Of a stretch of DNA of 35,600 nt, positions 6,189-30,418 are shown in pieces. Source of the DNA: an archaeon. Lineage in GTDB: Archaea > B1Sed10-29 > JAJRYS01. The first letter of the stretch is position 1. Each line of letters opens with the position of its first letter. Location of the stretch: NCBI GenBank assembly GCA_024275665.1, contig JAJRYS010000012.1, forward strand, positions 1 to 35,600, in the 5' to 3' direction. Made by a program: the position numbers and the translations under genes. A model generated the notes under the pieces. The model saw only the letters and a list, made by a program, of their open reading frames with translations. It was not told the origin of the DNA and made no database searches.

Positions 6189-6233
6189 AGAATAAGAATT
6201 CTAAGTTTAAAAGAATTTTTCCTACTTTGTTTT

Positions 6234-6745: not shown

Positions 6746-6830
6746 TAAAAATCACCTGTAATGATATCTCATTACAAGTTTATAAAGTTTTCCAACAGCA
6801 AGAAAGAGAAAGTGAATGGGTCCACCCGGA

Positions 6831-6909
6831 TTTTCGTGGGGAGTTGCGCTTGCCCCAGCGATAGGCCGCTTCACGTGGCCTGCAGGGGTAGAGGGGGTGC
6901 AACCCCTCT
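6831..6909 (-). other. Intron 2 of tRNA-Val (79 nt, T-loop 59/60)
   Basis: Interrupts the T-loop after TTCGAA. A 4-bp central helix TTCG/CGAA with 5' bulge AAA and 3' bulge AAT predicts cleavage that restores TTCGAAT. Internal hairpins GAGGGG/CCCCTC and AGGCC/GGCCT. Confidence 0.82.
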
Positions 6910-6931
6910 TTCGAACCGGGGAGCTTCGCCA

Positions 6932-6962
6932 TACTGCCAACAGCCATTGCTGTGGCTGTTGT
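6932..6962 (-). other. Intron 1 of tRNA-Val (31 nt, canonical 37/38)
   Basis: ACAACAGCCACAGCAATGGCTGTTGGCAGTA: 9-bp hairpin CAACAGCCA/TGGCTGTTG; 3-nt bulges CGA and TAT flank a short central helix (relaxed BHB). Confidence 0.85.
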
Positions 6963-7025
6963 CGTCAAGGCGACGTCCTAACCACTAGACCATGGACCCT
7001 TAATATCTAAAAAATTCTTATCTAA

Positions 7026-7096
7026 TGGACTCGCTGGGAGTCGAACCCAGACTGCTAGCCTGCAAAGCTAGCGTGCTTCCATTACACCACGAGCCC
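7026..7096 (-). tRNA. tRNA-Ala(TGC), intronless
   Basis: GGGCTCG TG GTGT AATGGAA GCAC G CTAGC TTTGCAG GCTAG CAGT CTGGG TTCGACT CCCAG CGAGTCC A; G3:U70 alanine identity pair present. Confidence 0.93.
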
Positions 7097-8368: not shown

Positions 8369-8413
8369 TTTTTGAAAAGCCACAGATGGGACTTGAACCC
8401 ACAACCTCCTGCT

Positions 8414-8566
8414 CTCTCAAACTGCTCCTGTTACTTGTTTTCCGCTGTGAAGCGGAAACCAGGCCACTTCAGCTTCAGCTGAACGTGGTCTTCAGATGTC
8501 GATTTGCGAACTGGGTAGTTCGCAAATTTGAAGACGCGTAGTCTTCAAATCTGGCTGTGGCAGTCG
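8414..8566 (-). other. Anticodon-loop intron of tRNA-Thr (153 nt, 37/38)
   Basis: BHB: central helix CTCG/TGAG, bulges TAC and AGA, intron helix GACTGC/GCAGTT. Four strong consecutive hairpins inside. Confidence 0.85.
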
Positions 8567-8587
8567 TACGAGGCAGGCGCTCTGCCA

Positions 8588-8624
8588 TTGCTCCCACGAG
8601 CAAAGAAGTTTTGCTTCAGGCGAA
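8588..8624 (-). other. D-loop intron of tRNA-Thr (~37 nt; boundary uncertain by 1-2 nt)
   Basis: The 44-nt insert-bearing D-loop reduces to AATGGCA. The intron 3' end carries GAGC, which can pair with D-stem 5' strand GCTC, leaving AAT/AAT bulges. Internal hairpins GAAG/CTTC and TTGCTC/GAGCAA. Confidence 0.68.
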
Positions 8625-8790
8625 TTGAGCTACGGTGGCATAGATTGAGCTATTTTTACGAATAGGTTAATGTTTTTTTATTTAATTTAATATTTTAAGG
8701 CTTTTCTTGTTAGTGCTTTGCTTGGTTGAAACTTGTTAAACAATACAAATATATATCATAAAGAATACAAACGTATTAAAGGTGTTGGTA

Positions 8791-29940: not shown

Positions 29941-30025
29941 GAAAACTAACTACTAAGAACAAGAATTTAAAACCTGTTGCTTTGAACCTTTCCATGTTAA
30001 AAAACAGTGAACGCGGAGGGCGAGA

Positions 30026-30119
30026 TTTTCTCGCTGTCCAGCTGGCTTTTCCGCTGTTAAGCTGAACTAGTGCATGCGGCTTGAGCCGCGTGCGCTTAAG
30101 TGCCGGCTGGTTGCAGCCG
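30026..30119 (-). other. T-loop intron of tRNA-Ser (94 nt, 59/60)
   Basis: Splits TTCGAA^T; 3' bulge AAT as in tRNA-Val. Hairpins CGGCTG/CAGCCG, GCGGC/GCCGC and GTTCAGCT/AGCTGGAC. Confidence 0.8.
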
Positions 30120-30158
30120 TTCGAACTCGCGAGCCCCGAAGGGCACTGGCTTAGCAGG

Positions 30159-30200
30159 CTCGCCTCGCTCCGCCGCTCTTGGAAAAGCAGCGTGGGCGAA
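30159..30200 (-). other. Anticodon-stem intron of tRNA-Ser (42 nt, 30/31)
   Basis: BHB: central helix CGCT/GGCG, bulges GGT and AGC, intron helix TCGC/GCGA. Confidence 0.75.
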
Positions 30201-30214
30201 CCAGCGCAATACCA

Positions 30215-30258
30215 TTGCACCTGCAAAGGTGCAAACCAAAGGGTTTGCCGTTTGCGGT
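30215..30258 (-). other. D-loop intron of tRNA-Ser (~44 nt; boundary uncertain by a few nt)
   Basis: Removal restores D-loop TAGTGGTAT. Intron 3' GTGC can pair with GCAT of the D-stem leaving AGA/AAT bulges. Hairpins GCAAACC/GGTTTGC and TGCACC/GGTGCA. Confidence 0.68.
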
Positions 30259-30266
30259 CTATGCGA

Positions 30267-30301
30267 CCTCCGCGCTTTTAGTATTGTAGTGTGCATGGTT
30301 T
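30267..30301. repeat. Direct repeat copy 2 (tRNA-Ser 5' end plus 5' flank)
   Basis: 35-bp identity cctccgcgcttttagtattgtagtgtgcatggttt with 30348-30382, period 81 bp. Confidence 0.93.
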
Positions 30302-30347
30302 TAACCATGCGCGCTTTAGCGCCAGTCCGATAATGTCGGCTGTGCGG

Positions 30348-30382
30348 CCTCCGCGCTTTTAGTATTGTAGTGTGCATGGTTT
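30348..30382. repeat. Direct repeat copy 1, carrying a tRNA-Ser-like 5' fragment (GCGGAGGCCGCACAG on minus)
   Basis: Same 35-bp string; similarity continues imperfectly into the D-arm (GCGGAGGcCGCAcAG vs GCGGAGGtCGCAtAG). Confidence 0.93.
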
Positions 30383-30418
30383 AGTGTTGTATTTTTGTTC
30401 TTCTTTTCTTAAAAACTT

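Follow-up and report, generated by a model that had tools for sequence, protein, structure and literature searches.

A tRNA-Val(GAC) gene with two predicted introns, one in the T-loop and shared with non-cognate tRNA genes of a DPANN-like archaeon

The window, i.e., the whole stretch of 35,600 nucleotides that we analyzed, carries a tRNA-Val(GAC) gene at 6999→6817 on the minus strand, 183 nt in total and interrupted by two introns. The initial annotation had proposed such a gene, with introns of 31 nt at 37/38 and 79 nt at 59/60 and no strand given, and ARAGORN indeed finds it once both are removed. The features discussed below are the following (BHB, bulge-helix-bulge).

6963-6999, minus strand: exon 1 of tRNA-Val(GAC), positions 1-37, 37 nt; ARAGORN detects the gene in the spliced sequence only
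6932-6962, minus strand: intron 1, 31 nt, canonical position 37/38, a stable hairpin
6910-6931, minus strand: exon 2, positions 38-59, 22 nt, with the T-loop TTCGAA at its end
6912-6915, minus strand: TTCG, positions 54-57, 5' half of the BHB central helix, pair probability 0.83-0.91
6831-6909, minus strand: intron 2, 79 nt, T-loop position 59/60, family A
6833-6836, minus strand: BHB central helix, 3' half, formed by CGAA of the intron tail; the bulge AA^T60 follows
6817-6830, minus strand: exon 3, positions 60-73, 14 nt, with T60, the 3' sides of the T-stem and acceptor stem, and discriminator A73
7026-7096, minus strand: intron-free tRNA-Ala(TGC), found by ARAGORN and Rfam, 26 nt upstream of tRNA-Val
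8378-8639, minus strand: tRNA-Thr(CGT), with introns in the D-loop (34 nt) and at 37/38 (153 nt)
30012-30273, minus strand: tRNA-Ser(GCT), with introns in the D-loop (41 nt), at 32/33 (42 nt) and at 59/60 (94 nt)

Read on the minus strand from 6999 to 6817, the gene is GGGTCCA TG GTCTAGTGGTTAGGACG TCGCC TTGACG [31 nt] T GGCGA AGCTC CCCGG TTCGAA [79 nt] T CCGGG TGGACCC A. Removing both inserts leaves a standard 73-nt tRNA-Val(GAC) with complete acceptor stem (7/7 pairs) and T-stem (5/5) and an intact anticodon stem. ARAGORN calls tRNA-Val(gac) on this 73-mer and misses the unspliced gene; in the window, ARAGORN and Rfam at the gathering score recovered the neighboring tRNA-Ala alone. The first intron folds into a hairpin of -23.3 kcal/mol, anticodon stem included, and its junction is a near-BHB with three of the four central pairs. 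The T-loop junction is a strict BHB, with the T-stem as outer helix and 3-nt bulges AA^A and AA^T. This agrees with the TTCG/CGAA helix and the junction TTCGAA^T that had been predicted beforehand: RNAfold gives the helix pairs probabilities of 0.83-0.91 and places the strict BHB 0.5 kcal/mol above the unconstrained minimum. Such a fold is not a chance occurrence, because the same arrangement is found in 28 of the 41 tRNA genes of this genome. The tRNA-Ala(TGC) is probably co-transcribed with tRNA-Val(GAC). The codons GTT and GTC, which need the latter, are used 132 times in the eight large window genes that we sampled.

We consider it very probable (about 0.9) that tRNA-Val(GAC) is encoded here by a functional gene, present in a single copy, and that its transcript would carry two predicted BHB introns, the one in the T-loop being a copy of a recently spread family. 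In the nearest relative (G004), the orthologous gene has an intact T-loop, lacks intron 1, and is identical to the spliced exons at 64 of 73 positions. The differences include compensatory pairs, with A7-U66 for G7-C66 and three pairs of the T-stem, and we conclude that selection acts on the tRNA across its introns. A search for a second, intact tRNA-Val(GAC) had been set as the test for a pseudogene. Neither the tRNA search of the whole genome nor a DNA search recovered one from the 634-kb, 90.8%-complete assembly, in which such a copy could be missing; Val(CAC) and Val(TAC) are the only other tRNA-Val genes.

Interrupted tRNA genes dominate this genome. Our curated set of 41 genes, which was built from tRNA-bearing stretches with an intron-tolerant script and may lack some genes, contains 65 introns: 28 at 59/60 (43% of all introns), 16 at 37/38, 16 in the D-loop, whose boundaries are less certain than the others, two at 32/33, two at 29/30, and one in the acceptor stem of the initiator tRNA-Met. 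Thirty-eight genes (93%) are interrupted and three are intron-free. ARAGORN recognizes 6/41 of the genes unspliced vs 41/41 after in-silico splicing, and the whole-genome Rfam search gave many weak tRNA matches that are broken in the T-loop.

Several of these genes have peculiarities of their own. The tRNA-Thr(CGT) gene occurs twice (window 8378-8639, minus strand, and G000:C9:5437-5659), each time with a D-loop and a long 37/38 intron, and the window copy has one acceptor mismatch. Upstream of tRNA-Ser(GCT), within window positions 30012-30400 (minus strand), the leader and first bases of the gene make up a direct repeat of ~33 nt (ACCATGCACACTACAATACTAAAAGCGCGGAGG twice). The initiator tRNA-Met (G000:C8:25945-26097, L091) combines a 37/38 intron with a 34-nt intron at 4/5 of the acceptor stem, whose BHB uses leader bases (GCAG/TTGT). 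The D-loop introns of tRNA-Asp (G000:C36:4966-5153) and tRNA-Gln (C26:2282-2600) share a hairpin unit of ~32 nt (GCTTGTCYG...CAGACAAT), which is tandemly duplicated in the former and, in the latter, is interrupted by a module common to T-loop and anticodon introns. Finally, the 182-nt 37/38 intron of tRNA-Pro(CGG) contains a candidate circularly permuted tRNA-Pro(AGG) (G000:C1:1724-2066, L089), where T CTCGG CGACCCC A precedes GGGGTCG...CCGAG TTCGAA and the flanks, GCTTTTCTTGGTTTT / AAAAGCCAAGAAAAGC, are complementary. Once rejoined, the candidate is accepted as a tRNA by ARAGORN; its oddities are A34 and a central helix that has a mismatch.

The T-loop introns follow a common rule: exon TTCR54-57 pairs with the YGAA (AGAA in some) of the intron 3' tail, which is followed by RR^T60. 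Among the 27 T-loop introns that were first analyzed, 100 of the 108 possible pairs between positions 54-57 and intron bases -6 to -3 are formed, vs 28-62 in registers shifted by 1-3 nt. All four central pairs are present in 19 of these 27, the others having three and an R57-A mismatch. When the later-found intron of Gly(TCC) is included, the survey of strict BHBs gives a 4-bp helix in 20/28 and a 3-bp helix (AGAA tail) in 8/28, with an outer helix in 28/28; several D-loop introns fit poorly at the chosen boundaries. RNAfold assigns the exact BHB a low probability in several T-loop introns (e.g., 0.01 in Ala-CGC and His-GTG), and those with three pairs might be poorly cut by a narrow alpha4 enzyme. 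The match between exon and intron extends to the variable base. Within family A, base -6 of the intron is C in genes with G57 (Val-GAC, Val-CAC, Leu-CAA) and T in genes with A57 (Val-TAC, Pro-TGG, Pro-CGG, Lys-TTT). Watson-Crick matches of R57 with base -6 are more common in this genome than in shuffles (permutation p=0.002), and a tally by hand of tRNA-confirmed introns from several lineages, found with a pattern in which R and Y are unconstrained, gives 57:-6 counts of A:T 20, A:C 0, G:T 8, and G:C 8 (Fisher p=0.0004), both p-values being optimistic because copies within an intron family are not independent.

This raises the question of the enzymes that would process these introns. We found a single EndA gene, of the alpha type and 170 aa long from the first ATG, and most other genomes of the phylum also have one EndA gene each. 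No second or beta subunit was identified in this genome with the family profile (E<=10), the assembly being 91% complete so that one could be missing; in viral contigs, no relatives of EndA were found. The protein aligns to the alpha4 EndA of M. jannaschii (1A79) from residue 3 to residue 169, with one gap of one residue, and the alignment retains the Tyr, His, and Lys that we take to be the active-site residues. The CSL loops have 15-18 residues and the ASL 11 (PMC12397907); given the single 1-residue gap, both are absent here. Hence, the enzyme is neither an (alpha-beta)2 EndA with a Crenarchaea-specific loop nor, at 170 aa, a three-unit fusion (~390 aa) with an ASL. Alpha4 and alpha2 enzymes are described as cutting canonical BHBs only, and multiple non-canonical introns accompany (alpha-beta)2 or epsilon2 enzymes (PMC4033280; PMC6379350). 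This genome departs from that correlation, and the strict BHB kept in most of its T-loop introns may be the reason why an alpha-type EndA suffices. The gene of the RtcB ligase (G000:C29:5794-7086, L086) has one in-frame TAG, the codon at 6232, in an otherwise intact frame, which is probably a sequencing error. We do not favor recoding of TAG as the cause of this stop, as 13/108 long open stretches end in TAG.

The T-loop intron of the window belongs to family A, which is present in the genes of Val(GAC), Val(CAC), Val(TAC), Leu(CAA), Lys(TTT), Pro(TGG), and Pro(CGG). It is 97% identical to the copy in Val(CAC) and 96% to that in Leu(CAA), vs 51-55% for the exons of Val and Leu, and 72-89% identical to those in the Pro and Lys genes. 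The Val(TAC) copy, assigned to the family by DNA search, has been lengthened by an internal insertion. There are five multi-member families, and other groups sharing introns comprise Phe, Met, Thr(GGT), and Thr(TGT), or Asn, His, Cys, Gln, Arg(TCT), and Ser(GCT). Across isotypes, introns are 84-97% identical over 34-103 nt and their exons 51-76%, and searches with two family members revealed intron copies inside tRNA genes only. Since near-identical introns thus reside in non-cognate tRNAs with dissimilar exons, their sequences indicate that introns have evidently moved between unrelated tRNA genes. The flanking identity common to all T-loop targets is short: GGTTCRA and TCC.

The comparison set includes 19 genomes of the phylum. 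Two genomes of the same order were recognized, by identical DNA, as QMVG01 'Candidatus Micrarchaeota archaeon B47_G15' and JAJSAI01 'archaeon Dive96_bin4.413', which fits the early guess of a DPANN-like genome. In the nearest relative, G004, none of the 23 tRNAs examined, Val(GAC) included, has a T-loop intron. G005 has three, and T-loop insertions, usually one, are found in tRNA-like genes of G002, G008, G011, G014, G015, and G016; the insertion given by the tRNA script in G015 has a tail that departs from the YGAA rule. G005 also has a tRNA with a long variable arm (L106:87-215, minus strand), whose anticodon appears to be TAC and whose T-loop holds a 43-nt intron. A pattern for short T-loop introns, applied to 394 archaeal genomes, matched 11 times in this genome (0 in the reversed control) and 15 times in G030. 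A few other genomes had 7 or 6 matches and the remainder mostly 0-4, many of the latter outside tRNA genes. In G030, an unrelated archaeon whose neighboring genes have weak TACK-like matches, all 10 matches that we inspected are tRNA genes. Given the separate bursts in this genome and in G030, bursts of T-loop introns occurred at least twice independently. T-loop intron families of their own, in several isotypes, are present in G030 (L236-L245), G072 (L253), G251, G334, and G131 (L247-L249). Such families of other archaea (GGTTCRAATGCTGCGGAAGC...GCTGAAAATCC; GGTTCAAATTTCAAAAATCTGGAG...GTCTGAAAATCC) obey the TTCR/YGAA rule.

These observations allow us to weigh other readings of the locus. It could be a decayed pseudogene, disrupted by insertions of repeats, with an intact copy at work elsewhere: the inserts are repeated sequences, and the missing part of the genome could hold such a copy. 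Yet every stem is intact, the differences from the relative are compensatory pairs, and the 38/41 genes interrupted likewise cannot all be pseudogenes. With no second copy found, compensatory changes in the stems, and the same architecture genome-wide, we rejected this reading as highly improbable. It is scarcely credible that the T-loop insert is retained, giving a mature tRNA with an expanded T-arm or a fragmented tRNA. Expansions or gaps are tolerated in some rRNAs and mitochondrial tRNAs, a general tolerance beside which we found nothing specific in favor of retention; a strict BHB and the covariation of R57 with the intron would be pointless without cutting by EndA, and the elbow, the modifications, and end processing need the geometry of the T-loop. 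The introns could instead serve chiefly as carriers of small RNAs, e.g., guide RNAs, their location in tRNA genes being incidental. C/D guides are known from some archaeal tRNA introns, and a conserved internal module recurs here among introns at different positions. Still, Rfam at the gathering score identified tRNAs only (in the window and three tRNA-rich contigs) and, at E<=1, nothing credible within the Val introns, which makes this account very unlikely. Matches to tmRNA_permuted and mascRNA in the Val introns were below threshold and were rejected.

A further alternative to transposition is that T-loop introns arose independently in each tRNA, converging on a splice position that is permissive. 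In several lineages, unrelated sequences use 59/60, a sign that the position is favored in its own right. This may explain the existence of separate families, but not the copies inside one family, where introns of different isotypes in a single genome are so much more alike than their exons; as an account of the T-loop introns in general, we find convergence very unlikely. We therefore return to a functional gene with a recently spread intron. The 3' tail of this intron (CGAA AA) would pair with exon TTCG54-57 atop the T-stem, forming a strict BHB at 59/60. From what is known of the pathway, the single alpha-type EndA, presumably a homotetramer, would cut both bulges and RtcB would join the exons. 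The family would have spread recently among non-cognate tRNA genes, which could work since GGTTCRA^TCC is a target common to all tRNAs, and the sixth-last base of the intron would then match R57. Candidate routes are DNA recombination, or reverse splicing with an outside reverse transcription; spread at the RNA level lacks an enzyme, since no reverse transcriptase (RVT_1 domain) was found in this genome.

Introns located at tRNA attachment sites have been proposed as a protection of the gene against integrating elements (Randau and Soll, cited in PMC3293823). A T-loop intron that breaks the usual 3' attachment site is compatible with a protective role, and neutral spread of a mobile intron explains the data equally. 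Tentatively, as a serious possibility that we hold just short of even, BHB introns at 59/60 may be a class of mobile tRNA parasites that target the universal TTCRA T-loop, have had independent bursts in several archaeal lineages, can occupy almost all tRNA genes of a cell with only an alpha4-type enzyme, and also generate tRNA genes permuted at 59/60.

Parts of this picture are already known. Position 59/60 is among the published non-canonical positions of tRNA introns (PMC4090602), and transposition of tRNA introns has been described in Thermoproteales, where P. calidifontis has >70 introns in its tRNA genes (PMC3218864; PMC4033280). Like the introns of Thermoproteales (Sugahara 2008; Fujishima 2010; reviews PMC4033280, PMC4090602, PMC3218864), those found here occur several per gene and at positions other than 37/38, including 59/60, and near-identical copies lie at the same position of non-cognate tRNAs. 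Unlike Thermoproteales, which have an (alpha-beta)2 EndA, this DPANN-like lineage has one alpha-type EndA without CSL or ASL, and 43% of its introns are at 59/60. The lineage context had been flagged as unusual; the DPANN-like part of that suggestion fits, but the intron load is less exceptional than supposed, since 92-95% of tRNA genes are now reported as interrupted in the Asgard groups Atabeyarchaeia and Freyarchaeia (PMC11291895). These resemble the present genome, with its 93%, in that non-canonical positions are frequent and many genes have several introns. They differ in being an unrelated lineage, for which the passages considered describe no T-loop bias, intron families, or EndA type. 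ARMAN-1 and -2 (Micrarchaeum; PMC12397907, PMC4033280) are also small-celled DPANN with non-canonical intron positions, but ARMAN-2 has a fused three-unit epsilon2 EndA with an ASL, as opposed to the single-unit alpha enzyme found here. The permuted tRNAs of Thermofilum pendens (PMC3218864, PMC3978253) have a BHB exactly at 59/60, where the tRNA-Pro candidate also breaks; unlike them, tRNA-Val is in the normal order here, and the candidate sits in the intron of another tRNA with weak BHB pairing. In the open-access literature we found no DPANN archaeon, and no genome whose EndA is of the alpha type, for which such an intron load is reported. Hence, 59/60 introns, transposition in Thermoproteales, and heavily interrupted Asgard tRNAs were known, and what is new is the lineage, the preference for the T-loop, and the type of EndA.

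The accepted view holds that diverse introns in archaeal tRNAs go with a broad-specificity EndA that has a CSL or ASL loop. In this DPANN-like genome of 634 kb, 41 tRNA genes contain 65 introns and the one EndA is of the plain alpha type, which is a direct test of this view: either alpha4 enzymes process far more than was thought, or strict BHBs at unusual positions suffice. If T-loop introns are indeed mobile parasites, this would contradict the rule that such loads require an (alpha-beta)2 or epsilon2 enzyme with CSL or ASL. Since near-identical copies are recent events, the route of intron movement could be tested by comparing close strains. There is also a practical consequence, as a standard tRNA search misses most of the tRNAs of such genomes.
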